From: a virus
DNA length: 34,460 nucleotides
IMG/VR virus record: IMGVR_UViG_3300035698_028141
Span: 1 to 34,460 of that record
Direction: 5' to 3' (one strand)
Below are positions 9,804 to 34,346 of this stretch, piece after piece. Positions within the stretch are counted from its first letter, which is position 1; each line of letters opens with the position of its first letter. Under the pieces are notes generated by a model. The model was not told where the DNA came from, did not search any database, and worked only from the letters and a program-made list of their open reading frames with translations. The translations under genes and the position numbers were made by a program.

Positions 9804-10019
9804 CTAATAATCCATTTTATCTTTTTTGAATATTTTTTTGCTATCTATATTAATGCCGGGCACTGCCGACTTTGTACTTTTTACTTTATAATTTATTCCC
9901 ACATTCGTACCAGGCTTTATAGAAATAGTTTTTGGTGTCTTAATAGTCGGAGCCTTTATATTAGGAATGGACTCCATCCCTGCCTCGGCAGCTCTCTTTA
10001 TCAATAGTGGACATTTCAT
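9804..10019 (-). CDS. Small tagged protein, function unknown
   Basis: This 71-residue protein starts with a variant of the shared tag, MKCPLLIKRAAEAGM: Cys3, Pro4 and Ile7 are kept, and the K-x-A part is slightly shifted (IKRAA). The rest is basic, rich in Lys, Ile and Pro (IPNIKAPTIKTPKTISIKPG), with no clear domain. It lies between two other small basic or tagged genes downstream of the protease. By analogy with T4 internal head proteins it may be packaged cargo; nothing in the body says what it does. Confidence 0.6.
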   Translation of the reverse strand: MKCPLLIKRAAEAGMESIPNIKAPTIKTPKTISIKPGTNVGINYKVKSTKSAVPGINIDSKKIFKKDKMDY

Positions 10020-10021
10020 AT

Positions 10022-10474
10022 CTACCCCTGTTGAGGTTGTGGTTGTTTTTCACTTTGATTTCTAGATGCCAAGTAATTATTTAGCATAGATCCTGCACCT
10101 ACCATTGCAGTCCCTACGGCTCTTTGTGGTTGTTCAGCTTTAACTCTATCAGTTTCTAACTTCATCATTTCCATTCTCTTCATATCGGCTTCGCTCTTTC
10201 TATTCCTAATTCGCTGACCTAGCTCAGGATAATCTAGTATAAGCCTTCTCACAATTTTATTTTGAAGGTTTTCCTTAGCTATTGTAGGTGCAATGCCAAG
10301 AGTTGGAATTCCGGTAAGCCACGGATGTCTTAAAGAAAAGCTATCATCATATCCCTTATTGATCAATCCTCTTACTTGCTCTTCCCGCTCATCTGGCAAA
10401 TATTCTCCAATGGCGTCCTCAATACGACCTACTCTCATCTTTGCTATTTTAATTATAACATCTGGACATTTCAT
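10022..10474 (-). CDS. Tagged small helical protein, function unknown
   Basis: This 150-residue protein starts with the tag MKCPDVIIKIAKM, which matches the consensus at Cys3, Pro4, Ile7, Lys9 and Ala11. The body is charged and helical (GRIEDAIGEYLPDEREEQVR). It has a hydrophobic patch near HPWLTGIPTLGIAPTIAKEN, then a long basic helix (EADMKRMEMMKLETDRVKAE) and a Gln/Pro-rich end. It is two bases away from the next tagged gene. No enzyme motif is visible. Packaging into the head is inferred from the tag. Confidence 0.6.
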   Translation of the reverse strand: MKCPDVIIKIAKMRVGRIEDAIGEYLPDEREEQVRGLINKGYDDSFSLRHPWLTGIPTLGIAPTIAKENLQNKIVRRLILDYPELGQRIRNRKSEADMKRMEMMKLETDRVKAEQPQRAVGTAMVGAGSMLNNYLASRNQSEKQPQPQQG

Positions 10475-10484
10475 AATTGACTCC

Positions 10485-10694
10485 TTAATAATTAGCGATC
10501 CTGCCGCCTAATCTATTTATTTTCCCCTGCAGCTTGGGCAGAGCGCTACGCGCCATATCCTTTTTAGATAAAGACATTATTTTAGTATTTAAAATTTTCT
10601 TTAGCCCTGCTTCCCTGTTAAGTCCCGATGTAAGATATCTTTTAAGATACCCCTGACTAAGTGCTTCTTTTGTTATCTCTCTTGGACAATTCAT
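10485..10694 (-). CDS. Very small tagged basic protein
   Basis: This 69-residue protein is almost entirely tag plus a basic helical body. The first eleven residues, MNCPREITKEA, match the tag consensus. The rest (LSQGYLKRYLTSGLNREAGL and a Lys/Arg-rich end) is strongly basic, which would suit contact with packaged DNA. The start overlaps the end of the upstream 117-aa gene by 4 bases (ATGA type), so expression is coupled. No family is recognised. Confidence 0.6.
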   Translation of the reverse strand: MNCPREITKEALSQGYLKRYLTSGLNREAGLKKILNTKIMSLSKKDMARSALPKLQGKINRLGGRIANY

Positions 10695-11044
10695 ATAACC
10701 TCGCGTTTATCTACTTTCCAATCTTCTTTTGTAGCACTGTCTAATTTCCAAGTTTTTCCAGTTCCCGGTTTAGGATCTATAGTACCATAAAACTCTGATC
10801 TAATATGTAAATCACCATCTTCTATTAATAATTTCATACGTTCTAATGACAGTTTGCTTATAAACATCTCTACCCTATTTTGTAATAATATAAGCATTTT
10901 CCCATTATGTATTACATGACTAAGAATTAAATCATGAATAATTATATTCTTTCCAGGGTGTTGCATAGCCTTGCCAATGGCTTCGAGTATTTTCCCATCT
11001 GTTTCACCATATAATCTTATCGTATCACCATTTTCATTCTTCAC
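10691..11044 (-). CDS. Small protein downstream of an orphan tag, function unknown
   Basis: This protein of about 117 residues reads VKNENGDTIRLYGETDGK onward, with a strand-helix-strand body and a repeated-strand region (LLIEDGDLHIRSEFYGTIDP). I place the start at GTG 11044 (TTG 11047 is possible), with GGGAGG a few bases upstream. That ribosome site lies inside an out-of-frame 11-codon reading frame encoding a tag (MKCPREAVGEE then stop). So this gene either lost its tag by a frameshift or is translated by coupling from the short frame. It sits between tagged genes. No function can be assigned. Confidence 0.55.
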   Translation of the reverse strand: MKNENGDTIRLYGETDGKILEAIGKAMQHPGKNIIIHDLILSHVIHNGKMLILLQNRVEMFISKLSLERMKLLIEDGDLHIRSEFYGTIDPKPGTGKTWKLDSATKEDWKVDKREVI

Positions 11045-11069
11045 CAACTGCCTCCCTTGGACATTTCAT
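11034..11069 (-). CDS. Orphan 11-codon tag reading frame
   Basis: Starting at ATG 11069 with GAGGA about 8 bases upstream, this frame reads MKCPREAVGEE then TGA. Its ATG overlaps the TGA of the upstream tagged gene (ATGA), the same arrangement seen between real genes here. Cys3 and Pro4 of the tag are intact but the I-x-K-x-A part is not. It is either the decapitated start of the following gene or a leader that feeds ribosomes to it. Confidence 0.4.
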   Translation of the reverse strand: MKCPREAVGEE

Positions 11070-11299
11070 TTTATTTTCCTCGGTTTGGCAACAAACTTAC
11101 CTCTAGAGAATATATTTAATTTTTTCCCAGTATATAAGTTTTTGCGCCCATAACCAGGATGACTTTTTAGCAGTTGTTCCCATTTTCCCTTATCAACCCC
11201 TGCTCCCTCTAATATAAAAGCAGGATTATCCACGTTTAACATCATTCTTGCCATAGCCATATTACTAGCTTCCTTCACTATCATTCTTGGACATTTCAT
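11066..11299 (-). CDS. Very small tagged basic protein
   Basis: This 77-residue protein begins MKCPRMIVKEASNMA, a full match to the tag consensus. The body has DNPAFILEGAGVDKGKWEQL, then a strongly basic end (KKLNIFSRGKFVAKPRKIK). The start overlaps the protease-like gene's stop by 4 bases (ATGA), so it is translated right after the protease. A cut after the tag would release a small basic protein. No family is recognised. Confidence 0.6.
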   Translation of the reverse strand: MKCPRMIVKEASNMAMARMMLNVDNPAFILEGAGVDKGKWEQLLKSHPGYGRKNLYTGKKLNIFSRGKFVAKPRKIK

Positions 11300-13302
11300 A
11301 ATTTCTCCTTATCTACCTTTGCAATCGTATCCCAAAGCATAGCAACAACACGAGGCTGTTCTTCCAGTGAATATTTTTCCATATCCATACCTTCGAACCC
11401 CATGCCTTGTTTTACCATATCTTCCATGCCTCTTTTAAATAGCCAATTAACCGGCATCTTTAACACTTTGCCTATAACGTCCCTGGACGGCTTATTTGCA
11501 AGCATAATTCCGCCGATGGCAGAAGTACCGGGATTCTTAGCAATAAACTTATTAGCATTGCTGATTCGCTCACCTCTTCTAGCTCTATTTATTTGGTGTT
11601 GCCCATATACATATGACAAAGGAACTATCCCTAATGTAGACAATGCCAGCGTCTTTATAGGATTCATCTTAATCGCTGTCTTGGGCATCTGATCTCGCTG
11701 GTATGCATCATATTCGCTTTCTACTGATCTACCAACTTCGGTCAAAGCCATTGCCCCTGCAACCGAGCCCATTAAAGCAAATTTATTCTTCCACATAGCC
11801 TTCATAACATCAACCATGGCCTTACTACCAGTTACCCTTGCCAATCCTAAATATGCGGCAATTGCTAGTAAAGATGTAGGCAATATGTCCCGCGCCGAGC
11901 TAGGTGGGTTTAACGGTGTTTGTATAGCATCTGCTTTCTTTATCATTATAATACGAGACACCATAGGTTTACTATGATAAGATTTCTGACCAATAAATGG
12001 TTTTAAAAGCTTAATAATGTCATCGGAAATATTCTCTTCACCAATATTATATGGAGAGCGCTCTTCATTCACTATATTTTCAAGACGCATCATCCTGCCT
12101 ACGTCATTTTCAGTAATGACCTTCCCTTCTCTCTCATATTTGTCAGCAAGATCTTTTTTCCCCTGGATTATAAGCGTTATTCTTTGGAATTCTTTAGGCT
12201 TTGGAGACATGCCAAGTCCCATCATTGTAGTTATGATCTTATCTATGTCGTGAGTTGCTAATTCATCAATAACTTCATTAGGGAGGTCTGGTTCTATTTC
12301 TCGTAAAACGGGAGTGATATAAGAATTCATGTATTCTTTGATTTGCTTATCATCATCACTTATAACCTCGCCATCAACTTCTTTCTCTATTTCAGCATCC
12401 TTATCAGCCTCATTAGTCTTTTCTAGTTTAAGATCTTCTGGATCCGTAATAGTTTCATCTTCACTAGCAACCTTAGCCAGTACAACTGCAGAACGATCTG
12501 CAGGGCGTCCGACTGTATCAGGGCTTGTTAGATTACTAATATCAAAGAATGAAGGATACATATTAACCATAAATGCTTTCCGTCCTTCTACATATTCGCC
12601 CTTATGAAACTTTATATGATTACAATATCTTTTAGCGGTTGCGGCAATACCCTTAGCCCCTCCATCTTTATTGAGCTCTTTGATATATGAAAGGTCTACG
12701 CCATACTTCTTTCCTATATCATGTATTGTCTTCAAATCTTTAGCCTGGGCAATCTTCTCCATATCACTATTGGGGATTGCATAGAACTCTCGCCACCTAG
12801 GATGGCAGATAGAGCAGCAGTCGAAAGACACCTTAGTACCCATTGACACCTTAATATCCTTCCCCTTTGCTAAGGCATCCCTTGTCCAATCATCCGTTTC
12901 AAGATCATATTCTACGATCAACTCAACCCTTGCCATCTTATTATTAAAGAAAGAGAATACCACCCTGCCGTATGATTTCTTAGGATCTTTATTCTTATGT
13001 AGCCTATACCAGTATGCATTTTTTACAAATGTCTTATGTCCGTATTCTTCCGTGTCATTATCAAGAGACTTAGTCGGGAAATAATCACCGTTATTGTTTT
13101 GTCCCCAGTTCTCATCAGTCATTGCCGCAATCAATAAGTACCCCTTTCCATTCTTGGGTTCCATGCTTGCAATAAAATCTTTTATCTCTGTAGAAAGCTC
13201 TTTATCCGCAGCTTCTTTAAGAAAATTACCCTTCTGGATGAGACTTTCTACTATAGTGTTTTCACTATCTTGCTGTTCAATGTATTTGATCATTCCTGAC
13301 AT
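11296..13302 (-). CDS. Probable prohead maturation protease fused to a membrane-like C-terminal region
   Basis: This 668-residue protein's first ~275 residues have the layout of phage prohead serine proteases: an opening NNNGDYFP at 69-76, a His at 102 in LHKNKDPKKSYGRVV, strand-rich sequence, and a Ser at 153 in KVSMGTKV, matching the family's H...S-x-G pattern. A Cys/His cluster (C162, C163, C166, H167, C227, H229) may bind metal. After residue 275 come an acidic linker, then at 447-457 an 11-residue M-x-S-x-x-x-M-x-K-K-A resembling a degraded tag. The C-terminal ~200 residues are hydrophobic and Gly/Ala-rich (LLAIAAYLGLA, FALMGSVAGAMAL). FLKEA, MEKIA, LAKVA and MIKKA motifs suggest self-cleavage. 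It lies upstream of the scaffold and capsid genes, the usual protease position. The active-site residues are assigned by eye. Confidence 0.7.
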   Translation of the reverse strand: MSGMIKYIEQQDSENTIVESLIQKGNFLKEAADKELSTEIKDFIASMEPKNGKGYLLIAAMTDENWGQNNNGDYFPTKSLDNDTEEYGHKTFVKNAYWYRLHKNKDPKKSYGRVVFSFFNNKMARVELIVEYDLETDDWTRDALAKGKDIKVSMGTKVSFDCCSICHPRWREFYAIPNSDMEKIAQAKDLKTIHDIGKKYGVDLSYIKELNKDGGAKGIAATAKRYCNHIKFHKGEYVEGRKAFMVNMYPSFFDISNLTSPDTVGRPADRSAVVLAKVASEDETITDPEDLKLEKTNEADKDAEIEKEVDGEVISDDDKQIKEYMNSYITPVLREIEPDLPNEVIDELATHDIDKIITTMMGLGMSPKPKEFQRITLIIQGKKDLADKYEREGKVITENDVGRMMRLENIVNEERSPYNIGEENISDDIIKLLKPFIGQKSYHSKPMVSRIIMIKKADAIQTPLNPPSSARDILPTSLLAIAAYLGLARVTGSKAMVDVMKAMWKNKFALMGSVAGAMALTEVGRSVESEYDAYQRDQMPKTAIKMNPIKTLALSTLGIVPLSYVYGQHQINRARRGERISNANKFIAKNPGTSAIGGIMLANKPSRDVIGKVLKMPVNWLFKRGMEDMVKQGMGFEGMDMEKYSLEEQPRVVAMLWDTIAKVDKEKL

Positions 13303-13325
13303 TTATAGTCTCCTAATATAATACT

Positions 13326-13559
13326 TTACCGTGAAACAGTTCTTTTTAATGAGCGATTAACACTCCCATTTAAAAGATTCATACCCTGATCATACGCTTT
13401 TCTGTAACTGGTTACTATATGCTCAGGAACTTTCATATCCTTAGGATATCTCTGTATTAAGGCAGCTAGAGCCTCAACCTTATCAGTTGCCTTACGCCCA
13501 GCTCTTCCAAGTAGGCCTGGACTCAATGCCTCTTTAATTATTAATCCTGGACATTTCAT
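13326..13559 (-). CDS. Very small tagged basic protein
   Basis: This 77-residue protein starts MKCPGLIIKEALSPG, matching the tag consensus fully. The rest is basic and helical (GRAGRKATDKVEALAALIQR) and ends in a Lys/Arg-rich tail (NRSLKRTVSR). It ends 23 bases before the protease-like gene starts. The basic body suits packaging with DNA in the head. No catalytic residues or known domain are visible. Confidence 0.6.
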   Translation of the reverse strand: MKCPGLIIKEALSPGLLGRAGRKATDKVEALAALIQRYPKDMKVPEHIVTSYRKAYDQGMNLLNGSVNRSLKRTVSR

Positions 13560-13571
13560 AAGTCTTCTCCT

Positions 13572-13846: not shown

Positions 13847-13858
13847 TTTTCCTCCAAA

Positions 13859-14976: not shown

Positions 14977-14978
14977 AA

Positions 14979-19699: not shown

Positions 19700-21055
19700 T
19701 TACTTTGGCGTTAATTTACTAACGATATCAAGAGCCTTCATAGCTTTATTGCCAGGACCGCTATCTTCCTTTATTTTCTTAGCACTTAAAAGATTACCAA
19801 CAGTAGATGATTCTAACGTATCCCATTCTTTATTGTGCAACATTACCTGCGCTAAATAGTAAGGCGTTTTAGCTAAGCTTGGATCTATGGTAAGTATGTC
19901 ACCTAGTATTTTATCAAACTTTTCTGATTCTATTTTTGCTAATTCTGGATATCCCTCAAGCAATTTCTTCTTAGCTTTCTTTTTATCAATTGCCTCTTCC
20001 ACCGTAAGTCCACCATATACACCAGTAGCTACTAATAATGGCAATAATGCATGATTTAATGCCGGCTTTATTACATCCTGCCAAGCACCTTGTGACTCCC
20101 TGCTAACGTCAGGCATATTTATAATTATGTTACCTGCGCTTCTCGCTGCTCTTGACCCCGGTATTCTAGAAGGAAAATATGCCAATTTGCTACGGCTAAG
20201 ATTAAGTAAGTGTTGTTTTGACGACACCTTTACTCTTTTCTGCAGTGGATCTATTAAGTATTCACCGCCAGCTTCTTTAAGCATTCTCATTAATTTTGCA
20301 TTCATATAAGCAAATTTAACAGCATTAAAATTGGCATCCATTAATTTTTCAGCCTGCTTAGATAATTCAGTATCTTCAACTTCCCTATCTTCAAACTCGC
20401 CTGGAATTTCAAACTGTGATTCCTGAGGGATAACGCCTTCATCCTTAAGTTTCTCTACAATGATCGGAAAATCTTTATCTAAGGCGGGCTTATTTGTCTC
20501 TCCCCATGTTTTAGCCAATACTTCATAAACATTATCAAGCGTTTCTCCTTCCTGCAATAATTCCTTAATAGTGTTATAAATATTAGTGTAAGTATCTTGC
20601 TGTTCCTGATACGCCCCGTTAAGATTATCCACTACTTCTTCTGCAGCTGTCTTTAGTATGCCCCTCTCGTGATACTTAGAGTTCATATACTTCTGACCAA
20701 GCTCTGACGCTGTTTTCTCAGCAAGAGAAGTACTCATAGCCGGGATAATGAATTCCATGTCAGCCTCTATTACCGCAACCTTTTTAATGGTGTCACTGAC
20801 ATTTTTTACCTGTTCTGCAGCTTCCAGGTGCTTAGCGGCATCAAACGTTGTCATTTTATCCTCTGCCCGCTTTTCTTCCCACTCCGTGTGGTTAATTTTG
20901 TGACATACCGATTCTATTTCATCGGGATTTAACATATTGCTCTTTGCTACCTTTACTAAAGCTTCTGTTAGACCACAAGGGGCAGCATGAGCATATTGTA
21001 ATGCTTCCTTTGCCAATCCTTCTATCTGCAATGACTTTCTATTGTCCCCAAACAT
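19700..21055 (-). CDS. Lys/Ala-motif-rich protein of the packaging module, processed internal protein candidate
   Basis: This 451-residue, mostly helical protein lies between terminase and portal. Its first 45 residues include CGLTEALVKVAKSNMLNPDE. The rest is charged helix with a hydrophobic stretch near residue 340 (ALNHALLPLLVATGVYGGL). Six matches to hydrophobic-x-K-x-A occur (LAKEA, LVKVA, IKKVA, ILKTA, LSKQA, MLKEA), more than in any other gene here, suggesting many cuts by the phage protease. The start at ATG 21055 has GGAGG upstream. The role may be an internal head or ejected protein; no family is recognised. Confidence 0.5.
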   Translation of the reverse strand: MFGDNRKSLQIEGLAKEALQYAHAAPCGLTEALVKVAKSNMLNPDEIESVCHKINHTEWEEKRAEDKMTTFDAAKHLEAAEQVKNVSDTIKKVAVIEADMEFIIPAMSTSLAEKTASELGQKYMNSKYHERGILKTAAEEVVDNLNGAYQEQQDTYTNIYNTIKELLQEGETLDNVYEVLAKTWGETNKPALDKDFPIIVEKLKDEGVIPQESQFEIPGEFEDREVEDTELSKQAEKLMDANFNAVKFAYMNAKLMRMLKEAGGEYLIDPLQKRVKVSSKQHLLNLSRSKLAYFPSRIPGSRAARSAGNIIINMPDVSRESQGAWQDVIKPALNHALLPLLVATGVYGGLTVEEAIDKKKAKKKLLEGYPELAKIESEKFDKILGDILTIDPSLAKTPYYLAQVMLHNKEWDTLESSTVGNLLSAKKIKEDSGPGNKAMKALDIVSKLTPK

Positions 21056-24157: not shown

Positions 24158-26248
24158 TTACTCAGCTCCTGAGTCGTTACCTCTTATCTCATTTAATAAC
24201 TTTGTCAGGGCTTTGATTGATCTCATCAATATATTCTCAGGTATATCATTTTTACCCATTCTGGATAATAATAATAGCTGTCCTATCTTATCAATTAAAT
24301 CTTCTACTCCATACTCTATGTCACTAGTTTCACCAATATTATCGTTATCTACATATTCTAGTCCAATAAGATCGTCTACTAATGATTCTAGCTCTGCTGC
24401 TTTAAACATACGCTTGCTATTTGCTGCAGCCTTAGAGTATTTTACAACGTCTTCATTCTTCAATAATACATAAGCAAGCTTCATCCACTCACCTCTGTAT
24501 TCTTTTAAGGATTCTATGGACGGATACTCCTTAAGTTCTGGCTCAGATGCCTTCTTAGTTATAAGATAACCCTTACCCTTTTGCAAATCTTCAGATACTA
24601 TGTCATCTCTTCCCATGAAATGTTGCACATATAAGTCTGCTGCTGTCTTGCTTACTTCTGATACCACTATAGGATCCTTTTCTTCTTCCTTGATCGCGAT
24701 ATCAACCTTAGTTGGATTATAGTTACTAGTGGTAAGAATCAGCTCTTTGTCATACTTACCGAACTCATCCTTGAAGTAGCTACCATAATAATCTTTTGGC
24801 TTAACAGGTTCTTCCCTCTTTCCAGGCAATAGCATCGTTCTATATTGTGCAGGGATCATCCATAGCGGGTGACCTGTATCAGATACAGCCTTATACTTAT
24901 TCCTTTGCATCTTGTCTTTCTTCGCCTTAAGTGGACGATCAACTTGGCATCCAAGCCACAAGGATAGAACCATTTTAGATGCGTATGACTCAACATCTAT
25001 GATAGTAATAACTTCTCTTTTCTCGCCCAATGCATAACTTTCTGCTTTGAGTATCTTATAAGGAGAAGATATCCTTCCACCATCAGCATAAAATATGATA
25101 TCCCTTCCGAAATGTTCCTGAAGGTCATCTATATCTTCAAGACAAACCCAAGTCCCATCTCTTCCGGCATCTGGCACATCGAATTCGTCATGCTTTATAC
25201 CATACATCTTGCCAAACATCCATCCAGACTTTTTCTTAGGCTCATTGTCCCCATCAACATCCGGAGTTATGCCTCCGCCACCACTTTGAGCTTCCATTTT
25301 GGGTTCGTTGCCAACTGGCATTGTATCAACGATTGTTAATGGCTTTATGTTTCTTTGTGCAGTATTCTCTATTGTGAAAATGTTAGTGAACACAGGAACC
25401 CTTACGATAGATTCCTTAAATGATATATCATATTCGCCCGGCTCTTCGATAGACTTTATCTTTGGAGGCTCAACACTTTTAGGGTTAAATGAGACAAACT
25501 CTGCCTCTTTAACTACCTTATTATTAAATTCTTTTAGTTGCGACTCTGGGACATCTTCTAAGTATTCATGCTTTAGTTCACCACCTACTTTCTTCAGCAC
25601 AACGCAGCGATAATGATAAGGATTTTCTTCCATTTCCTGTGATGCAACCTTGATGATATCCTCTCTATCATATATCGAATTTGCGCACTTAATATAGCGT
25701 TTAATCTTATCGGAAAACACGCTGTCAGCCTTGTATAAAGAGTCATAATAGCTAGCAACTTTCTCTGATAATTCCTTTGCACCCTTGAAGTACATCGGGT
25801 TGCCATCTTCATCTGCATCAGTTGTTTCGAATAAACTTGTGATGAATTCCGTTTGATCCGTGATGTCGTCTTCTTCCGGATTCTCAGTCATCACGCCGTC
25901 TTCCTGCCCTCTTAATCCAAGGCTCTTGATCATCCCCATATCGATGGGAATAACACGCTTTCCAGCCAGTGCTATGTCCGGTTCCTTGAGCTTGAATTCC
26001 TCAATAAAAATAGGTATAGTAAACGCAATATTGCCATCTCTATACTCTGCACTTCCCACAGCATTCCCAACCTCTGGATCCTTAGCCTGGAAATTTACAG
26101 GTCTTATCCCTGACGATAGTTCTGGATATTTATCAATTAGGTATTCGTTGACTAATGAAGACCACTTACTTGCGTCCTTCGCTTCAACACTTAACAGTGC
26201 GACTTTGACATTTTCAAACGGCTTTACTTCCTTAAATAACTTACTCAT
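24158..26248 (-). CDS. Large unknown virion-type protein with Lys/Ala motifs
   Basis: This 696-residue mixed alpha/beta protein lies upstream of the terminase pair. It carries several matches to hydrophobic-x-K-x-A (IIKVA, VVKEA, VSKTA, ITKKA), suggesting processing in the head. A Gly-rich linker (EAQSGGGGITPDVDGDNE) separates the first half from a second, strand-rich half (GWMFGKMYGIKHDEFDVP onward), and the C-terminal ~150 residues are helical. The start, ATG 26248, has GGAGAGG upstream. It ends one base before the 333-aa gene. I do not recognise a family; an internal or ejected virion protein is the best guess. Confidence 0.5.
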   Translation of the reverse strand: MSKLFKEVKPFENVKVALLSVEAKDASKWSSLVNEYLIDKYPELSSGIRPVNFQAKDPEVGNAVGSAEYRDGNIAFTIPIFIEEFKLKEPDIALAGKRVIPIDMGMIKSLGLRGQEDGVMTENPEEDDITDQTEFITSLFETTDADEDGNPMYFKGAKELSEKVASYYDSLYKADSVFSDKIKRYIKCANSIYDREDIIKVASQEMEENPYHYRCVVLKKVGGELKHEYLEDVPESQLKEFNNKVVKEAEFVSFNPKSVEPPKIKSIEEPGEYDISFKESIVRVPVFTNIFTIENTAQRNIKPLTIVDTMPVGNEPKMEAQSGGGGITPDVDGDNEPKKKSGWMFGKMYGIKHDEFDVPDAGRDGTWVCLEDIDDLQEHFGRDIIFYADGGRISSPYKILKAESYALGEKREVITIIDVESYASKMVLSLWLGCQVDRPLKAKKDKMQRNKYKAVSDTGHPLWMIPAQYRTMLLPGKREEPVKPKDYYGSYFKDEFGKYDKELILTTSNYNPTKVDIAIKEEEKDPIVVSEVSKTAADLYVQHFMGRDDIVSEDLQKGKGYLITKKASEPELKEYPSIESLKEYRGEWMKLAYVLLKNEDVVKYSKAAANSKRMFKAAELESLVDDLIGLEYVDNDNIGETSDIEYGVEDLIDKIGQLLLLSRMGKNDIPENILMRSIKALTKLLNEIRGNDSGAE

Positions 26249-26303: not shown

Positions 26304-26615
26304 TTATACTTCTTTTTTCAGATCCCTTTTTTCTATCCTTCTTAAATTCTTTATCTCACCCTTGCGAGACATATTGCGCCCAGTTAAGCCACCAACAACG
26401 GTTCCAGTGGCTAACATTGGTGCCATGGTACCCAATGCTAAGAGTGGGTTTTTCCTAAACATTAAGGCATTAAGTAGACCTCCACCCATAAAGCCAAGAG
26501 CAGCACCTCCTGCTCCACCACGATGACCAGCCCTGTTAACACGTTCAGTAGCCTCTATTTGGTCCAGCGGTGAATTTTCATATGCTATCTTTACGATCAT
26601 ATTTGGACATCTCAT
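26304..26615 (-). CDS. Small tagged glycine-zipper membrane-like protein
   Basis: This 103-residue protein begins MRCPNMIVKIAYENS, a full tag match identical over the first 11 residues to the tag of the gene at 26985-27437. The body is dominated by Gly/Ala hydrophobic segments (GGAGGAALGFMGGGLLNALM and LLALGTMAPMLATGTVVGG) followed by a basic tail (RRIEKRDLKKEV). This suggests insertion in a membrane, perhaps the host envelope after ejection. No known family. Confidence 0.6.
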   Translation of the reverse strand: MRCPNMIVKIAYENSPLDQIEATERVNRAGHRGGAGGAALGFMGGGLLNALMFRKNPLLALGTMAPMLATGTVVGGLTGRNMSRKGEIKNLRRIEKRDLKKEV

Positions 26616-26636: not shown

Positions 26637-26786
26637 TTAATTACATCTATCCCCATATATTGCTTTTGCCAAGATTCCCAATCCTAACCCGCCACCAACA
26701 TAACGTAGGTTTTTAAACCCATCTCTGATGATTTTTTGGGCCATTGGGCTCAAGGCTACTTTATTGAAATTAGCTGTATCCAACAT
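26637..26786 (-). CDS. Very small glycine-rich protein with tag-like start
   Basis: This 49-residue gene, with AGGAG 5 bases before ATG 26786, fits the gap exactly between two tagged genes. It begins MLDTANFNKVALSPMAQKII. F7, K9 and A11 sit in the same register as the I7-x-K9-x-A11 of the tag, but Cys3-Pro4 are absent. A Gly-rich hydrophobic stretch (YVGGGLGLGILAKAIYG) forms the rest. It may be a tag variant or a related small membrane protein. Confidence 0.55.
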   Translation of the reverse strand: MLDTANFNKVALSPMAQKIIRDGFKNLRYVGGGLGLGILAKAIYGDRCN

Positions 26787-26793
26787 ATAGCTC

Positions 26794-26976
26794 CTATAGT
26801 ACCTTCATTGGATTTTTTGTTACTGCCTTTAACGATGTTTTTAACGGATTCTTAAGGCTATTGGCATACATTAGATTGAACCCAGTTTTAAGCGGCTTCT
26901 TAATCATGCTTTTGCCAAGACCTATTATTGCCTTGCCAACAAATGCCTGCTTTAAGATCACCTTTGGACAATTCAT
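26794..26976 (-). CDS. Very small tagged basic protein
   Basis: This 60-residue protein starts MNCPKVILKQAFVGK, a full tag match. The rest is strongly basic and helical, with near-repeats (MIKKPLKTGFNLMYANSL, then KNPLKTSLKAVTKNPMKVL), which suits contact with DNA or membranes. Its I-L-K-Q-A resembles F-L-K-Q-A in the major capsid N-terminus. It lies between two glycine-zipper genes. Confidence 0.6.
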   Translation of the reverse strand: MNCPKVILKQAFVGKAIIGLGKSMIKKPLKTGFNLMYANSLKNPLKTSLKAVTKNPMKVL

Positions 26977-26984: not shown

Positions 26985-27437
26985 CTAGTCTATATACTTA
27001 TCTTCTTCTTTAACCTTGCGTTGCCCTCCACGAACTTGCATTTTTCTTGATGCAAGCCAATCACCAAGAAAGGGTACCATAGTACCCATTAAATTTCTAC
27101 CAACATATTGATTCACATCTGTAGGTTTTACCCCCGTATTTTTTTCAGTTTTCCTTAAAGATGTAACATCCCCAGCAATTGACCCAGAAACTCCCCCTAT
27201 ATATCCACCTGCTGCTGCTCCTATACCTGTTCCTACCCTACCACCAACCAATCTACCAATACCTGCACCTATACCTACCCCTGCGCCTCCACCAGCCGCT
27301 CCACCAACTGTGGTTCCTATCATCCTATTCGCAAGTTCTTTAATATAATTATCAACTGATTGGTAATCATCTCCCGATGTATTAAATGGGGTAATCCCCA
27401 CCTCAGCTATCTTTACGATCATATTTGGACATCTCAT
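26985..27437 (-). CDS. Tagged glycine-zipper protein
   Basis: This 150-residue protein begins MRCPNMIVKIAEVGI, a full tag match. I place the start at ATG 27437 for agreement with the tag, although ATG 27443 two codons upstream shares the ribosome site. A long glycine zipper occupies about residues 35-95 (GGAAGGGAGVGIGAGIGRLV and GTGIGAAAGGYIGGVSGSIA), typical of membrane-inserting or pore-like proteins. The C-terminus is charged and basic (ASRKMQVRGGQRKVKEEDKY). It follows the COOH-NH2 ligase-like gene by 17 bases. Membrane activity after ejection is inferred. Confidence 0.65.
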   Translation of the reverse strand: MRCPNMIVKIAEVGITPFNTSGDDYQSVDNYIKELANRMIGTTVGGAAGGGAGVGIGAGIGRLVGGRVGTGIGAAAGGYIGGVSGSIAGDVTSLRKTEKNTGVKPTDVNQYVGRNLMGTMVPFLGDWLASRKMQVRGGQRKVKEEDKYID

Positions 27438-27454: not shown

Positions 27455-28834
27455 TTATTTAGTCCATCTCGGCATTATGTCTAACGATACATCTTGTATG
27501 CCAAGACGTGCTCTGTTTAATATTTCTTCTAACTGTTTATCACTGGTTACTCCACCTTTATGAAGCAAATCATATATCCCGTCCAACGCAGTCCTGTGTA
27601 CATCCCTGTTAAATAACCCGAGTGTTTTATCCCCAGTCATATTACGTATCTGTTTACCAAGAGCTGAAGCATCGTGCAATAACTCCGGATGTGACGTAAA
27701 TAACTGTGCTAAACCGTATGTGCTATATGTCTGCCCTGGGCTACCTATAAATGTAGAGCCATGTCTAGCCTCAAACGTCCTAACCCCATCACCAAGATCT
27801 CTTATCCCCCTTGTGTCACTTAGGGTACGACCAAAAGGAGCCAGCTGCAGCCTTTTCTTAGAACCCCCAACTGTATATTGATTCAAGATAGGTGCCAATA
27901 TAGATGCATTAAATATATCAGATTTTTTTAACTGTGTTGTTGACAAACTGTTCCCAAACTGATCTACTAATTCTCCTGGGTTTAATCCTACATGGATATG
28001 CCCCCCATGACCAGCCATACTGCCCCTAATCCTTGCCATTGCAGTAACGGTGTCTCCCGGTTTCAAATATTTATTTTTAATCCCAATTAATAAATCTCTT
28101 ATTTTATCTACTCCCTCTTCTGGAAGCACAGATGGGTATGGGTTAAGTTCTACTCCTAGTATTGTACTATCGCCAGTTAGTCTGCCAATATCATCCTTAT
28201 GCTTAAATACACTTTGTGAAATTGTACCGCCTTTGCGAACCGTGGGGCCTGAACGATAAACCAATCCTGGTATTTTATGTGGTTTATACAGCTTAAATTT
28301 ACCTAATATATTTTTGGCTCTTACCACACTTGACTCAGGGTCAGAACCAAAAGTGCGAAGCGCACCGCCTAAATCTGGTATTTTTTTTATAGCTCGTGAT
28401 AAGTTCGTAGCTGTTTTCCCAAAAGGTGCTATACTATACGGTCTAAATCCTATGTCTCTACCAACTCGACCCATTGCCTTTGTAGTGCCAAATTGTAATA
28501 AGCCTATTGCAGATGGGGATAGTACCCCTGCTACCGCTCCAATGCCGCCTCCGATTAATTGAGACTTTAAAATTTCTTTTTTTTCTTTCTTACTCAAACT
28601 TTGCAGATAATAATTCTTTTTAAGCGATCTAGTGCCATCTTTTTTATTTTTCTCAAGATAGTCATTATATAATTTATCTGTCTTAGTAACGCCGCCTATC
28701 GCTCCACCCGTAAATAAGCCCATCGCACCTAGATTTGCCAATATAGATGGGTCTATTGATAATTTATCCATTCCCACGTCTGTAGGGTTAAGCGTATGCA
28801 CACAATTACCAGTAATCACTGCAGGACATTTCAT
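27455..28834 (-). CDS. Tagged COOH-NH2 ligase type 2-like protein
   Basis: This 459-residue protein starts with a degraded tag (MKCPAVITGNC). The N-terminal ~160 residues have Gly-rich hydrophobic segments (ANLGAMGLFTGGAIGGV and QLIGGGIGAVAGVL). The C-terminal part has the motif order of the phage COOH-NH2 ligase type 2 family: FGSDPE near 162-167, LGVELNPYPS at 227-235, GGHIHVG at 277-283 and RTFEARHGSTFIGSP at 352-366. The family joins a carboxyl to an amine with ATP, but the substrate here is unknown. I place the start at ATG 28834 with AGGAG 6 bases upstream, rather than 28852. It is unusual in carrying the tag and a membrane-like head. Confidence 0.68.
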   Translation of the reverse strand: MKCPAVITGNCVHTLNPTDVGMDKLSIDPSILANLGAMGLFTGGAIGGVTKTDKLYNDYLEKNKKDGTRSLKKNYYLQSLSKKEKKEILKSQLIGGGIGAVAGVLSPSAIGLLQFGTTKAMGRVGRDIGFRPYSIAPFGKTATNLSRAIKKIPDLGGALRTFGSDPESSVVRAKNILGKFKLYKPHKIPGLVYRSGPTVRKGGTISQSVFKHKDDIGRLTGDSTILGVELNPYPSVLPEEGVDKIRDLLIGIKNKYLKPGDTVTAMARIRGSMAGHGGHIHVGLNPGELVDQFGNSLSTTQLKKSDIFNASILAPILNQYTVGGSKKRLQLAPFGRTLSDTRGIRDLGDGVRTFEARHGSTFIGSPGQTYSTYGLAQLFTSHPELLHDASALGKQIRNMTGDKTLGLFNRDVHRTALDGIYDLLHKGGVTSDKQLEEILNRARLGIQDVSLDIMPRWTK

Positions 28835-28880
28835 TTCCGCTCCTAACAACATTATTTAATGCTACTCTTTTAACAACGTG

Positions 28881-28910: not shown

Positions 28911-28921
28911 TGATTTATTAA

Positions 28922-29983
28922 TTAAGCCATATTAATATCTTCAAGCAATTTTTTATATAATTCGTTCCACATATCTGCAACCACCCTGTAGCTATGGAAA
29001 TTATCACAAAATTCTTTTGTTTTTTGCGATATCTTTTCTAAGTTTGAATCTAACAATTTCCTAAACGCCCTATAGCATGATATCTGATTATTTGAGTGAA
29101 ACATTGCCATCGGGTGTTTTTCGTTAATTTTTCCGCCAGACTGTTTCATTGCATCTCTGCTTACATGGCAGATTGTGGGTATTCCAAATTGCATCGCTTC
29201 TAATGCTGAATTACCATAAAATCCTGGTCCTGTCTGATCAAAGAATATATGAGCACTTTTCTTAATCTCTACACATCTTTCGAAAGGTAACCCACATATT
29301 ACATTTACTTTAATATTATATCCATCTTTCCTTAATTCCTCTATTACAGGCAGAAATATACTATCCGTCCCCTTTTTCCCCCTATTTGATGGTGAATGCG
29401 CAATTACTATTTGTCCATTAGGTGGAGTAAAAGTGTTTTCTTGGCTTTCACTATCGATAGCCTGTTGTGTATAAATACCATCATAGCCATCATAGTTTAA
29501 TTCTGCTGTTAGGGCAGTACGTAAGTCAGATCCCATATAATGCTCAAATCCATGCCACGCCTTAGCAATGTTAGATTTCACATCATGCCTTCTGAAGCCA
29601 CTCCCTCCTACCGTTACAATTATTTTTTTATCTTTTGCTATTTTTATGTATTTTTTCCACATGTGAACAGGTGGTTCATCACCTTTAAAGTGTACTATGT
29701 CACAATCATCAACTAATCTCTGTATTCTTTTTAACGACAATGCAATATCATGCTGACTCCTTCTATCTTCACTTCTTGTAATTCTATGTCTAGGTTTTTT
29801 TGCATATCTTCTTTTAACCCTGCTCGGTATCATATTTGCTAATACATAATCAGAACCTCTTTTTGCCACTTTCTCAGTTATTAACTTTATTTTATATTCT
29901 GGATAATATCTCGTTACTGCTTCTTTTATCCTCTTTCCTGATCCTGCATAATCTGCTGTACTCAATATTACTATTTTAACCAT
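28922..29983 (-). CDS. GT-B-like glycosyltransferase
   Basis: This 353-residue protein has the shape of a GT-B glycosyltransferase. There is an N-terminal Rossmann-type domain (MVKIVILSTADYAGSGKRI) with a conserved-looking KIIVTVGGSGFR segment. The C-terminal domain has AHIFFDQTGPGFYGNSALEA, a typical GT4 sugar-nucleotide-binding region with the Gly-rich loop and acidic residue. I chose ATG 29983 with AGGAG upstream; an earlier start at 30067 would overlap the previous gene by 92 bases. It overlaps the upstream GT gene by 8 bases. Acceptor unknown: virion glycan, DNA base or host surface. Confidence 0.65.
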   Translation of the reverse strand: MVKIVILSTADYAGSGKRIKEAVTRYYPEYKIKLITEKVAKRGSDYVLANMIPSRVKRRYAKKPRHRITRSEDRRSQHDIALSLKRIQRLVDDCDIVHFKGDEPPVHMWKKYIKIAKDKKIIVTVGGSGFRRHDVKSNIAKAWHGFEHYMGSDLRTALTAELNYDGYDGIYTQQAIDSESQENTFTPPNGQIVIAHSPSNRGKKGTDSIFLPVIEELRKDGYNIKVNVICGLPFERCVEIKKSAHIFFDQTGPGFYGNSALEAMQFGIPTICHVSRDAMKQSGGKINEKHPMAMFHSNNQISCYRAFRKLLDSNLEKISQKTKEFCDNFHSYRVVADMWNELYKKLLEDINMA

Positions 29984-30947
29984 TAGATCTCCTGTAGTCA
30001 CCAATAACGTCCCTAATTGCCCTATCCAGTCTATCTGCAGCTTCTTCATATGTAAATACATACTCATTAGAATTTTTATATTTTAATAACTTATGGCACT
30101 TCGCTATTATGTCTTCACGGCTAAAATCTGTGAACTCTATACATTTTTTACCCTCTCCCCATTGCATCAGGGCATCATACTTACCCGATAATACTGGTAT
30201 GTTTGCAGATAAATAGTCATTAAGCTTATTAGGCAACGCAGTATTGGCCACACCATCATGATTAATAACTATTACCCCTATGTCATATTCTGAGAGCTCT
30301 GACGTTAAATCATAAGGAGATACGGAATCATGAACATATATACCAGCATCTTTATAAATATCACATTTACTAACTGAGGAAGGCAATATGTGAACATTGA
30401 TAAAGTCTATGGAGGATAATTTCTTTAATTTATCCAATATATTTCTATGATGATTTTCAAGATAGGTTATCGTTCCATCATAGACTATATTTATACAGCC
30501 ATTGCCTATCTTTGGTAAAGTATGTTTTGGTAAAAAATCTGCGTGAATACCATTCTCAAATACACAAGTCGGCGCTATCCCCATACTCTTAGCTATCTCT
30601 TCTTGCTGATTACTAACAAAGACACATAGATCAGCGGCATTCATATGTTCAATTTCTCTTGGCTTATTCTCATTTATGCTTTTTATATCCCCTACTGCTT
30701 GTATTATTGGACATCCAACCTTCTCATAAGCTATAGTCTTTAATCCTGGGTTAAATATTATACAGCAATCGTATTCTCCGTAATTCTTACGGTCCGTAAC
30801 GTTAATAATGTTAAATTGCTCCCAATTAAGCCCCGATACCGGCTCCCTTGTATACCCAATAGTAACTATATGCCCCAAGCTAATTAACGTTCTAGCCCAT
30901 TTATATAATCTTATGGCTGGTCTATATTGTATTAATATAATCTTCAT
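29976..30947 (-). CDS. GT-B-like glycosyltransferase
   Basis: This 323-residue protein begins MKIILIQYRPAIRLYKWART, a nucleotide-sugar Rossmann start, and shows CVFENGIHADFLP, then INIVYDGTITYLENHH in the second domain. A C-terminal part with ALPNKLNDYLSANIPVLSG is typical of GT4-family enzymes. ATGA overlap with the upstream LicD-like gene shows operon coupling. No substrate can be inferred. Confidence 0.6.
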   Translation of the reverse strand: MKIILIQYRPAIRLYKWARTLISLGHIVTIGYTREPVSGLNWEQFNIINVTDRKNYGEYDCCIIFNPGLKTIAYEKVGCPIIQAVGDIKSINENKPREIEHMNAADLCVFVSNQQEEIAKSMGIAPTCVFENGIHADFLPKHTLPKIGNGCINIVYDGTITYLENHHRNILDKLKKLSSIDFINVHILPSSVSKCDIYKDAGIYVHDSVSPYDLTSELSEYDIGVIVINHDGVANTALPNKLNDYLSANIPVLSGKYDALMQWGEGKKCIEFTDFSREDIIAKCHKLLKYKNSNEYVFTYEEAADRLDRAIRDVIGDYRRSNG

Positions 30948-31660
30948 AGAGTATTCTTCATCTGTTCTACTCTGCGGGATTCAAACATCCTTATGTTCAT
31001 CAACATTTTATTTGTAAAAAACAAAGCCTTAGGTGTTCTCCATGTTTCCCCATACCATGTTTCAAGACATAGTTCATACCTATTTGGCACTAAAAATTTA
31101 TGCCCTGCAATCTCACCTTCCCTTTTTAATGGGAATATCCAGTCCTTAGGTAAAGAGGTATAATATCTAGCTACAGTATTAGGCCCTATAACATATACTC
31201 TTGGGAAATAGTTATATATACACTGATGCTCAGGATTACTTGGATCCTCAAATGAAAGATACACATCATAAAACATATTCTTAAGATCTTCAGGTGGTTT
31301 TGCAGTATATATAGTAAAACGTAATTGTCCCCACAAATCTGCTGGTCTTAGATTGGTAATTTGCCTGTGATTAGGCATTTTCGCATATACGCCATCAATT
31401 TCTTTCTTTAGGGTCTCATAATCATTATTTTTAGACCTTGAAACAATAGCAACATCAATATCCTTATCATGAAGTATTAAATTTTTTTCCCGTATCCCGG
31501 CTAAGAGTCCTCCATATGTCAAAAACATGTCATACCCTAGTTCATTAAGCTTCTCCTCTAATGCAACAAGGTTATTAACATATACTTGCCTTTCATCATC
31601 CGTTAATTGCTTAAACTTGAATTTTTCCCTTTTTTTCTTATTATTCTCATTCACTAGCAT
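30944..31660 (-). CDS. LicD-like transferase (nucleotidyltransferase fold)
   Basis: This 238-residue protein contains LTYGGLLAGIREKNLILHDK followed by DIDVAIV, the GG-LL-G-R ... HD-K-D-I-D pattern of LicD/fukutin-type transferases that move a phosphate-containing group such as phosphocholine onto glycans. The paired Asp in DKDIDV would bind metal. The C-terminal half is strand-rich without further motif. It overlaps the GT2-like gene by 14 bases and the next GT by 4, so it works within this cassette. Substrate unknown. Confidence 0.6.
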   Translation of the reverse strand: MLVNENNKKKREKFKFKQLTDDERQVYVNNLVALEEKLNELGYDMFLTYGGLLAGIREKNLILHDKDIDVAIVSRSKNNDYETLKKEIDGVYAKMPNHRQITNLRPADLWGQLRFTIYTAKPPEDLKNMFYDVYLSFEDPSNPEHQCIYNYFPRVYVIGPNTVARYYTSLPKDWIFPLKREGEIAGHKFLVPNRYELCLETWYGETWRTPKALFFTNKMLMNIRMFESRRVEQMKNTL

Positions 31661-32420
31661 TCTCTTCTCCTGTTATAGTCATTTCCTCTAATCTATCAAC
31701 GATATCACCCGGTATATACTTTCTCATATCCCACTCATATTCTTTGAATGGTCTAATCCTCATTGTTATCTTTTTAGCTCTTGCTTTACTTATATTATTA
31801 AACCCATTGCTATCAAAGCCTTCAAGCAAACAACGCCCGTACAAAAGTTCCACTATCATAGGATCTGTTTGTTTAAAAAGCCAGTAATCTACAGAAGATT
31901 TTATATTATCTCCTCTTGGTATTTTATGGAGAATACTGGTAGAGATAGCCATATTTAAACTGCATGGATGGTTAGTTGTAATATTTTTCTCATAGAACAT
32001 CGCATGATCACCGGATAAGATATCATAGAATATCCCCTGTCTAGCCTGTACCCAATCAGCGCCCATAGAGAATAATTCATGGCTCTCCACCAACCTATAT
32101 GGATAGTCGTAACAATCAGCTGCCTGTGGCAAAAAACCAATAGAGGTTTCACTCACCATCTGAGCTAACCTATGCCATTTTTCGCTTAACGGTTCCCATT
32201 TACTTAGCCCAATATACTCTATTCTTTTACAGCCTACTTCTTCTAATCGTTTCGCATAAGCCTTGATCCGTTCAGAGCCAAAAGAATTATCTATCATCTC
32301 TTCTGCTATTAACAGTTCCCACTCGAAGTCTATGCCTTTCTGTCTGCATAAACCTTCAAATGCAAGCCAAGCTATCTTATCGCTGTTATACATAGGTAAT
32401 GCTACGCTTAACTTAACCAT
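31647..32420 (-). CDS. GT2-like glycosyltransferase
   Basis: This 257-residue protein begins MVKLSVALPMYNSDKIAWLA, the characteristic opening strand and loop of GT-A family 2 enzymes, followed by IDFEWELLIAEEMIDNSFGS, the expected acidic region. The GT2 metal-binding D-x-D is not obvious by eye. I prefer ATG 32420 over 32432 because GAGGA lies 6 bases before it. It overlaps the Cys-rich gene by 8 bases. Function: probably transfers a sugar in the same pathway as the neighbouring genes. Confidence 0.6.
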   Translation of the reverse strand: MVKLSVALPMYNSDKIAWLAFEGLCRQKGIDFEWELLIAEEMIDNSFGSERIKAYAKRLEEVGCKRIEYIGLSKWEPLSEKWHRLAQMVSETSIGFLPQAADCYDYPYRLVESHELFSMGADWVQARQGIFYDILSGDHAMFYEKNITTNHPCSLNMAISTSILHKIPRGDNIKSSVDYWLFKQTDPMIVELLYGRCLLEGFDSNGFNNISKARAKKITMRIRPFKEYEWDMRKYIPGDIVDRLEEMTITGEENASE

Positions 32421-32703
32421 ATAGATCCTCATTATATTTAATAATATTTTCTAGTCTTCTTATGAGGTATTTCTTTGTATAAAAGTCTTCCGGGCACATT
32501 ATCCAAGTTTTAGTTTGAAGCTTTGGTATCTTTGGGAATAACTCTCTACAAATCTCGCACATAATTTTATGTTGATCCTCCGGCTCTTTCGAATAGCATT
32601 TCCACCCGAAACATCCGATCATCCTTTCATCATTAATAATATTCTTTATTATCCTCTTGATTACAACAACACCGGTAAGACCAACCTTGATGTATTCCCT
32701 CAT
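32413..32703 (-). CDS. Small Cys-rich protein, function unknown
   Basis: This 96-residue protein has an N-terminal hydrophobic part (VGLTGVVVIKRIIKNII) and Cys clusters (GCFGWKC, MCEICREL, and another Cys in WIMCPEDFYTKKYLIRR). These could bind a metal. It lies between the radical SAM gene (7 bases) and the GT2-like gene (overlap), so it probably serves the same pathway. No family is recognised. Confidence 0.5.
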   Translation of the reverse strand: MREYIKVGLTGVVVIKRIIKNIINDERMIGCFGWKCYSKEPEDQHKIMCEICRELFPKIPKLQTKTWIMCPEDFYTKKYLIRRLENIIKYNEDLYG

Positions 32704-32710
32704 TTTGTTA

Positions 32711-33418
32711 TTAATAAGTTTCTAATAAGTCACGAGTTTTGAGGTTACCAAAACAATATGAGCACATATCCCTTTTGAATGGATCCATGTTCTCAAATTT
32801 CTTTAAAAATTCAGGTCCAAGCTTTGATACCTGAGACTTAAATTTTATCGGTTTCCATCCCTTTAAGTCTATCATATGATTTTGAAATGTACATAATGTT
32901 ATTTTGTTACCATACATGCCAAAAGCCTTACATCCGCAATCTGCAGGTAAGCTATCAGGGATAGGCTCATCGGGGATAGCGTAGAATATCTCTCTATCTA
33001 ATATAACAACATTGGGAATCTTCTCTTTTACTATTAGGTCTATATTCTTTTGGTTATTATCATACTTAGAAACAATGACTTTAGTGAGTAGTCCACATAT
33101 CTTCTTAAATTCAGGTAAATACTCTTCGTCAACTCTTAAAGCATTAGTATACATAACTATCTCTGGAGTAATCCCGGATTCCTTCAGCATAATTATAGCT
33201 TCGTGTAGAATAGTCCATAACAAAGGCTCTCCCCCAGAAAGCACTATCCTCTTAAACTGATATCCGCTCGATAAACTATATTCTATCAAGTCTTCCATAT
33301 CAGATAAACTTGTTTCCCAGCCTTTATGATTTTCCATCCAAGGTATTACCGGACAAAACGTACACCTATTCTGGCAAGCTGCGGTTGTTTTAATGGATAA
33401 CCTCATTTCTTGAATCAT
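32711..33418 (-). CDS. Radical SAM enzyme
   Basis: This 235-residue protein has the C-x-x-x-C-x-x-C iron-sulfur motif at Cys15, Cys19 and Cys22 (ACQNRCTFC), followed by the glycine-rich SAM-binding VLSGGEPLLW near 58-67. The C-terminus has further Cys (CGCKAFG, TLCTFQNH, MCSYCFGN) that may bind a second cluster, as in SPASM-type enzymes. It is shorter than a full SPASM enzyme. ATG 33418 has AGGGGA upstream. Placed first in the sugar cassette, it may make or modify a nucleotide sugar or acceptor; the reaction is unknown. Confidence 0.75.
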   Translation of the reverse strand: MIQEMRLSIKTTAACQNRCTFCPVIPWMENHKGWETSLSDMEDLIEYSLSSGYQFKRIVLSGGEPLLWTILHEAIIMLKESGITPEIVMYTNALRVDEEYLPEFKKICGLLTKVIVSKYDNNQKNIDLIVKEKIPNVVILDREIFYAIPDEPIPDSLPADCGCKAFGMYGNKITLCTFQNHMIDLKGWKPIKFKSQVSKLGPEFLKKFENMDPFKRDMCSYCFGNLKTRDLLETY

Positions 33419-33428
33419 CTTTGTCCCC

Positions 33429-34346
33429 TTATAACAATTTATTTAAGTATCTATTTCTATTCATTTTATTAATTATATATGGAGATATTTCCGAGCTACC
33501 ATATGCTTTAGACACGATACCCGGGTATTTATTGATCATTTTTTTACTGGCTACTCCGCCGTTCTGAAGGAACCACTTAAGGGGAGGTCTTATAATTTGA
33601 TTCTTAAAAGCCGGTGCAGTAAACGATGGGACTCCACTTGTGCCAGGTACTGCCAACAGCGGCAGTTCAAAAGGTAAAGCCTCTACGTTATTCCGTGCTA
33701 TATGAAGCAAATTCTTAGTTGGCTTGGTCTTACGCATTCCTTTATATACCCCGGCAACACTATTCCTAATCCCTGCCCATCCTTTTGGTATTAGTTCTCC
33801 TGCAGTTATTGCTACCTTAATAGATTGTCCTTTTACTGGCTTCTTAGTATTTCCCTTCTTTGCCCATTCCTTGAACTGATCAACAGTAAGATAGCTTATC
33901 GCTCCAAGCCCTGTCCATCCTTTCTCATAGTTAGCAAGATAGGTTTTCTTAGCCTCTTCTTCAGTTAAGGCTCCGATAACACACTTATGCTCATCGAATT
34001 TGCCTTTAAACATCTGGTCTATTACAAAGACTATCTGGCTTTCCGGATGGTCACCAATGAAGATGTCTATTTTATCTCCATCTTTAGCATCCTGCGCATT
34101 TGATATATAGCCATAGCCATACTTCATTTCAATAGACCATTTCTTGCCATTATCGGCTGTTCCTGACCTGATTGACCCCTTGGGATTTTCTATCTTTATA
34201 TTAAGCCCATTCCACTTAAATGATCCTTTCTTGTAGTTTTCTGCATTGATCTGAGCTTCTGTAGGATTAATATTTGTATCTTTACGTGCTTTCTGGATAT
34301 CAGACTTTAATCCTGATAACTTAATGATCATTCTTGGACATTTCAT
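33429..34346 (-). CDS. Tagged protein with phage pyrophosphatase-like (InPase) domain
   Basis: This 305-residue protein starts with a near-complete tag (MKCPRMIIKLS, Ser in place of Ala11). The domain at about 45-165 matches the inorganic pyrophosphatase-like domain of phage polyvalent proteins, with AKDGDKIDIFIGDHPES at 87-103, VIDQ at 108-111, FDEHK at 117-121 and a following EEEAKKTYLANYEKGW. Asp residues here would bind metal. The C-terminal ~130 residues are basic, with a helical end. The start overlaps the upstream gene's stop (ATGA). Tag plus polyvalent-type domain suggests it is packaged and ejected into the host. It could hydrolyse phosphate bonds; the substrate is unknown. Confidence 0.72.
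   Translation of the reverse strand: MKCPRMIIKLSGLKSDIQKARKDTNINPTEAQINAENYKKGSFKWNGLNIKIENPKGSIRSGTADNGKKWSIEMKYGYGYISNAQDAKDGDKIDIFIGDHPESQIVFVIDQMFKGKFDEHKCVIGALTEEEAKKTYLANYEKGWTGLGAISYLTVDQFKEWAKKGNTKKPVKGQSIKVAITAGELIPKGWAGIRNSVAGVYKGMRKTKPTKNLLHIARNNVEALPFELPLLAVPGTSGVPSFTAPAFKNQIIRPPLKWFLQNGGVASKKMINKYPGIVSKAYGSSEISPYIINKMNRNRYLNKLL

Follow-up and report, generated by a model that had tools for sequence, protein, structure and literature searches.

Ten genes of a tailed-phage late region share an N-terminal leader that is probably a removable capsid-targeting peptide ending at a Lys-x-Ala protease site

The internal head proteins IPI, IPII, IPIII, and Alt of bacteriophage T4 are unrelated, mostly basic proteins that share an N-terminal capsid-targeting sequence (CTS) of about ten residues, which is removed by the protease gp21. 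Mutant leaders have revealed that residues 4 and 7 act in targeting and residues 8 and 10 in processing, and the L/I-x-E motif of gp21 is known from experiment (PMC9026906). The proteases of T4, phiKZ, 201phi2-1, SPN3US, and P1 all cut after Glu (PMC5694885, PMC9026906, PMC9024508). Here we describe a leader of comparable build in a 34,460-nucleotide stretch of viral DNA (IMG/VR record IMGVR_UViG_3300035698_028141, positions 1 to 34,460; referred to as the window), which covers 34 kb from the late region of a large phage, with the main genes all on the minus strand. Ten of these genes start with M-[KRN]-C-P, and most of the leaders continue to Lys-x-Ala (K-x-A). Comparative sequence evidence and the analogy with T4 make it likely (probability roughly 0.84) that the leader is a two-part removable CTS, consisting of an address and a K-x-A cut site for the phage's own protease.

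In the proposed mechanism, M-[KRN]-C-P would act as an address peculiar to the lineage and direct the protein into the prohead, presumably through binding to the internal core or scaffold, and [ILMF]-x-K-x-A would be the site read by a gp21/assemblin-like protease. The cut would probably fall after Ala, which is Ala11 in a leader such as MKCPRMIVKEASNMA, and would free a mature, mostly small and basic internal head protein. Other predicted substrates of this protease are the major capsid protein (MCP), which it would trim, the core proteins, which it would cut into pieces, and the protease itself, which would be released at the two borders of its domain. The T4 precedent and the pyrophosphatase (InPase) domain of one cargo protein suggest that the freed proteins remain associated with the DNA, with possible ejection into the host.

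The shared leader in the window and its relatives

The original prediction, made from the letters of the window alone, had claimed a common N-terminal peptide on ten otherwise unrelated proteins. All ten were found at the predicted starts, compared to 0.017 genes expected to have Cys3-Pro4 by chance from the residue frequencies of the window. Cys3, Pro4, Ile7, Lys9, and Ala11 were present together in seven of the ten, in agreement with the claim that most leaders match at all five positions (8e-6 genes expected). Every one of the ten starts with ATG, nearly all are preceded by a Shine-Dalgarno-like sequence, and the leader motif was absent from all further window proteins. No mutual BLAST similarity was detected among the ten bodies within the window, so that their description as unrelated held.

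The seven complete leaders (on the minus strand, as are all window genes and sites given below in the form "x to y"; an arrow marks the predicted cut) belong to the genes at 26985 to 27437 (MRCPNMIVKIA↓E, 27405-27437; glycine-rich body), 26794 to 26976 (MNCPKVILKQA↓F, 26944-26976), 26304 to 26615 (MRCPNMIVKIA↓Y, 26583-26615; the orthologue in contig G001 starts MKCSRMIIKIA), 13326 to 13559 (MKCPGLIIKEA↓L, 13527-13559), 11066 to 11299 (MKCPRMIVKEA↓S, 11267-11299), 10485 to 10694 (MNCPREITKEA↓L, 10662-10694), and 10022 to 10474 (MKCPDVIIKIA↓K, 10442-10474; tagged orthologues in G005 and G007). The remaining three deviate as the original prediction stated. The gene at 33429 to 34346, which encodes the InPase protein, has Ser at position 11 (MKCPRMIIKLS↓G, 34314-34346), and its orthologues in G001, G005, and G007 have Ala. 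The gene at 27455 to 28834 has a degenerate leader that lacks K-x-A (MKCPAVITGNC, 28802-28834). The gene at 9804 to 10019 has a leader one residue shorter (MKCPLLIKRA↓A, 9990-10019; G001 orthologue, MKCPRMIVKTA↓S). What had been called its shifted end thus reflects a separate leader form, M-K-C-P-x-I-x-K-x-A beside M-K-C-P-x-x-I-x-K-x-A, which is the usual form in relatives such as G004.

The orphan frame at 11034 to 11069, also listed in the original prediction as carrying the peptide, does have the MKCP start but not the K-x-A end; it comprises 11 codons (MKCPREAVGEE-stop). Because G001 has a tagged 31-codon open reading frame (MKCPRMIVKEASRRF...) at the equivalent place, the orphan is probably the decayed remnant of a tagged mini-gene. 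Directly behind it, among the tagged head genes, 10691-11044 encodes a homologue of the early-region gene 31777 of G004. Three N-terminal K-x-A motifs without the Cys-Pro half had been overlooked: those of a small basic protein at 26637 to 26786 (MLDTANFNKVA↓L), of a basic protein with a body isoelectric point (pI) of 10.8 at 9349 to 9792 (minimal leader MILKGA↓G; MILKEA in G001), and of the MCP (FLKQA).

Tagged relatives were collected by a DNA-pattern scan of viral contigs followed by full reading of the matching contigs, which yielded 58 distinct leaders in eight contigs (the window, G001, G004, G005, G007, G008, G009, and the L043 contig). Since K-x-A was part of the search pattern, its constancy among the 58 is not in itself evidence. 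Codon usage varied freely: Lys was encoded by AAA 30 and AAG 28 times, Ala by GCA, GCG, GCC, and GCT 22, 14, 10, and 9 times, and Pro by all four of its codons. The similarity was confined between the start codon and residue 10 or 11, with unrelated DNA on either side. Judged from these alignments, the conserved entity is the leader peptide, not the DNA. Thr, Arg, or Tyr replaced Cys at position 3 and Ser replaced Pro at position 4 in some relatives.

The tags lie in the head-gene cluster of each tagged contig, with one exception; in G004, a 64-kb contig, they are found at 39.8-48.6 kb, with none in its 95 early genes. A one-base variant of the short-form DNA pattern, which acts as a null, gave six single matches, none of them tags. 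A conserved 70-amino-acid protein (MKCPKYIKEALRQRANHA...) encoded on the long, unrelated contigs L137, L139, and L141 matched the short-form pattern and was taken as a chance look-alike. A scan of genome contigs with a portal profile returned no relatives, and contigs L047-L049 were rejected as relatives: they have only the portal in common, are not enriched in K-x-A, and lack a protease match.

The tagged bodies are consistently basic. Those of all ten window genes have a pI of 9.3-10.9 (9.8 for the InPase protein, 9.9 for the protein with the degenerate leader), compared to a median of 5.6 for the other window proteins. In eleven contigs besides the window, including both further leader dialects described below, 48 of 52 tagged bodies but 203 of 649 untagged proteins exceeded pI 9 (P, 2e-19). 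The pyrophosphatase-like domain proposed for the protein starting at 34346 was supported by Pfam (PF18823; E, 1e-48); the COOH-NH2 ligase-like domain proposed for another tagged protein gained nothing from Pfam. InPase occurs in polyvalent proteins, for which packaging and injection have been predicted (PMC5512222). Tagged enzymes in the relatives include an SNF2-like helicase and an M91-like peptidase; the G008 protein at L156 18602-19181, with the leader MNCPSILQKKS, has a weak M91-like metallopeptidase match. Between tagged genes of the window, 28922-33418 holds a sugar-modification-like block with glycosyltransferase-like genes, a LicD-like gene, and a radical SAM gene.

The prohead protease and the Lys-x-Ala motif

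The gene at 11296 to 13302, in the head cluster near the portal, core, and MCP genes, matches the PHROG family "head maturation protease"; Pfam gave no match for it or for most tagged proteins. The protease domain spans approximately residues 34-282 of 668. With an AlphaFold2 model of 367 amino acids (mean pLDDT, 82), T4 gp21 was the top match in VIA-align (Z, 8.8), followed by many herpesvirus assemblins, and predicted prohead proteases in BFVD were matched at E values of 1e-8 and better; plain Foldseek against PDB gave a weak match (E, 0.11). The structure match thus places the protein in the assemblin-like fold. His102 (12997-12999) and Ser153 (12844-12846), each invariant in 46 of 46 homologues, are the candidate catalytic residues.

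K-x-A brackets the folded protease domain. At the N-terminal border, the predicted auto-cleavage site K29-E-A31 (13210 to 13218) has Lys and Ala in 44 of 44 aligned homologues while its middle residue varies; at the C-terminal border, K277-V-A279 (12466 to 12474) has Lys in 39 and Ala in 38 of 46. Residues 1-33 and 295-308 are predicted to be disordered. The two motifs look as self-processing sites should. Bacillus phage G gp19 (L162 16840-17742, unannotated) is a structural neighbour that looks like a remote member of the protease clade; it has eight K-x-A in 300 amino acids, but the capsid protein of phage G has none and the region is only weakly enriched, which is suggestive and was not used.

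In the window, [ILVMF]-x-K-x-A was enriched in the protease, the capsid N terminus, and the core proteins but not in tail and nonstructural genes. K-x-A was the most enriched residue pair (gaps of 1 to 6) in a set of window core proteins picked partly by eye (72 observed versus 30 expected; Z, 7.5), with other K..A gaps at expectation and no enrichment in the remaining window proteins (19 versus 28). Because of that selection, the fair tests are unselected sets, in which K-x-A was also in excess: 103 versus 69 expected in the whole window, 97 versus 62 in G001, and 50 versus 29 in L043. Two cultured phages, Arash of Salmonella and D69 of Vibrio, are tied to the window through protease and capsid homology; in both, K-x-A was the top pair in head genes but not in tail genes. 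Among 80 loci gathered by protease homology alone, K-x-A exceeded expectation in 79 and ranked first of 1600 pairs in 24. When 57 loci, likewise found through protease homology only, were split without regard to the motif, genes lying no more than 2.5 kb from the protease contained 2269 K-x-A versus 1066 expected (2.1-fold), and genes farther than 2.5 kb away contained 777 versus 826. In the 156-kb contig G010, the enrichment was restricted to the head block.

The preferred context was L/M/F/I at P5, E at P4, K at P3, T/V/Q/E at P2, A at P1, and S/E/A at P1', with the signal spanning P5 to P2' and scant information outside P6 to P2'. Applied to T4 head proteins as a positive control, the same statistic ranked LxE first and IxE second. 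In SPN3US propeptides it ranked E-S first and A-x-x-S second, which are parts of the A-X-E↓S cleavage site (PMC10052503), and the A-x-E pair itself only 19th.

The MCP (5498 to 6493) has an HK97-fold match (E, 5e-11), is homologous to the Arash MCP, and contains a predicted site, FLKQA↓E, at residues 6-10 (6464-6478) and a second, LGKLA, at residues 12-16. A K-x-A near the N terminus was present in 54 of 57 MCPs of the clade, typically at about residue 25, just ahead of a conserved EGSAFIRQKLRE block. Predicted sites also occur in a core/scaffold-like protein (7035 to 7514; three sites), an acidic core protein (7724 to 8521; four), a core protein at 8532 to 9260 (three), a core protein at 19700 to 21055 (seven), a small core protein (21074 to 21415; two), and a large structural protein (24158 to 26248; five, and three of its K-x-A pairs do not vary among relatives). 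Across relatives of 30-70% identity, the large core proteins, such as that at 19700 to 21055, showed invariant K-x-A spacing at several positions. These comparisons strongly support the assignment of K-x-A as the site, and [ILMF]-x-K-x-A is probably what the prohead protease encoded by the phage itself recognizes.

Leader dialects and alternative explanations

Other phages in the protease clade have repeated leaders of their own that end in K-x-A. MKYFEK[ITNQL]A was found on 8 of the 255 called genes of G010; seven of these lie at 64-73 kb, its sole K-x-A-enriched stretch. M[STD]N[VIP]YLEKxA is another such leader. By this comparison, M-[KR]-C-P is the dialect of one lineage. The K-x-A junction was retained when leaders were exchanged: the body of the gene starting at 26976 is common to proteins in G001, G007, and G004 that have a different pro-region, ending in ...IKQA in G001 and ...IKEA in G007, and the InPase protein in L046 has a pro-region ending in ...EFLQKIA. 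The original prediction had hesitated over Cys-Pro, which is not part of the T4 signal, and this doubt is settled in part. The cleavage motif does not need Cys-Pro, and in relatives Thr-Pro, Arg-Pro, Cys-Ser, or an entirely different leader takes its place; Cys-Pro would thus belong to the lineage-specific address half.

Leader DNA at 26583-26615 and 27405-27437 is identical at 32 of 33 nucleotides in unrelated genes with unrelated flanks; leader cassettes are thus copied between genes, here recently. G004 contains an in-frame internal MKCPEIIKEA. Nested in-frame tags, in which an upstream domain or leader is followed by a second MKCP/MRTP leader, occur in G001 (28599-27571, L028), in L143 (3326 and 3410), and in G004 (43336-43734); some have a ribosome site of their own and others do not, and polyproteins or alternative starts are both possible. 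We lean toward a wider picture in which a large tailed-phage clade has a Lys-x-Ala protease, lineage leader dialects are read by a co-evolving core partner, and the address-plus-cut cassette is modular and can be copied.

The copied leader DNA is what might be expected if the likeness were at the DNA or RNA level, as a translation-initiation or recombination element at late-gene starts. This can be rejected as highly improbable: synonymous sites are free among the 58 leaders, no likeness extends upstream of the start codon, and the peptide pattern persists in distant phages. It is just as improbable that the tagged proteins are old paralogues that retain only the N terminus. They are mostly short and basic, as paralogues might be, but their bodies share no similarity in the window, orthologues swap the leader for other pro-regions, and enzymes such as InPase are tagged.

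Alternatively, the leader could be solely a removable propeptide, with the bodies targeting the head and M-[KR]-C-P serving solubility, timing, or another function. K-x-A sites without Cys-Pro in core and capsid proteins indicate that cleavage alone can do without it. However, M-[KRN]-C-P is kept on unrelated bodies beyond the needs of cleavage, the heads of other lineages are equally uniform but different (MKYFEK, N.YLEK), and the T4 leader has separate residues for targeting (4 and 7) and for processing (8 and 10) (PMC9026906), so that this explanation seems unlikely. A slightly weaker contender is that a core or scaffold partner docks on K-x-A, which is left uncut, so that the leader is a permanent tether. 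The many K-x-A repeats in core proteins resemble a multivalent docking motif, but K-x-A at both protease domain borders and at the MCP N terminus occupies classical processing positions, and its information is confined to P5-P2', in a statistic that marks the true cleavage motif in T4.

For a removable CTS, the reading proposed in the original prediction by analogy with T4, support comes from the basic bodies, the avoidance of early genes by the tags, and the K-x-A junction kept on leader exchange. Several points weigh against it. The leader starting at 34346 has Ser at P1 and that at 28834 lacks the site altogether; 3 of 57 MCPs are without K-x-A, and one G008 tag lies far from the head cluster. 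Selection by eye played a part in the window core set, with which unselected sets nonetheless agree, and the SPN3US control placed A-x-E low. Arash core-type proteins reported at high coverage (gp220, 96%; gp223, 100%) show no sign of loss; that coverage is not informative, because the table credits 100% to proteins with two peptides. We infer the virion location and leader cleavage of the tagged proteins, and Ala as P1 is suggested by pattern symmetry and analogy.

Comparison with known head-maturation systems

To our knowledge, Lys-x-Ala instead of x-Glu specificity has not been described for a leader-removing protease of this kind, and no relevant report of the motif was found in an open-access library. 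If the reading is true, the clade-wide motif would be a new specificity, as the studied prohead proteases of the T4, phiKZ, and P1 kind cut after Glu, and testable substrates are available at once. The leader would also allow prediction from sequence of internal head proteins, possibly injected, in phages that cannot be grown; such proteins are otherwise invisible because their bodies share no homology. Comparison of dialects may offer a way toward what reads a CTS, and the pair statistic a general route from genome sequence alone to the cleavage rule of a head protease.

As in T4, a short common N-terminal peptide is found on unrelated, mostly basic proteins, an address half is followed by a processing half, and by comparative evidence (enrichment, domain borders, and MCP sites) the leader ends at the motif of a gp21-fold prohead protease that would chop the core and trim the capsid protein at the same motif. 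In contrast to the L/I-x-E of T4, with cleavage after Glu, the leader here is M-[KR]-C-P-x-x-I-x-K-x-A, with predicted P3 Lys and P1 Ala; about ten tagged genes lie in one window, and the protease similarity is distant. Thus, the leader resembles the T4 CTS in architecture only, not in sequence. Herpesvirus assemblins, which cut after Ala, have the same protease fold by structure match, but they act on scaffold rather than cargo leaders and have no K-x-A rule.

Many internal head proteins are also processed in the large myoviruses phiKZ, 201phi2-1, and SPN3US, where N-terminal leaders recur as well (SPN3US gp53/gp54), but cleavage in these phages falls after Glu (S/A/G-x-E, A-x-E) and the propeptides are mostly long (PMC5694885, PMC10052503). 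In phage P1, the N-terminal 30 residues of DarB suffice for packaging of a reporter, and the ejected cargo counters host defence; the Dar proteins have no common leader consensus, however, and in the P1 capsid protein the cut follows Glu120 (PMC9024508). Arash and Vibrio phages D69, D148, and D181 have homologous protease, capsid protein, and sheath, with K-x-A as the top head-gene pair (for D148 and D181, protease similarity only); unlike in the window, no Cys-Pro leader was seen in these phages (Arash structural proteome, PMC10585845).

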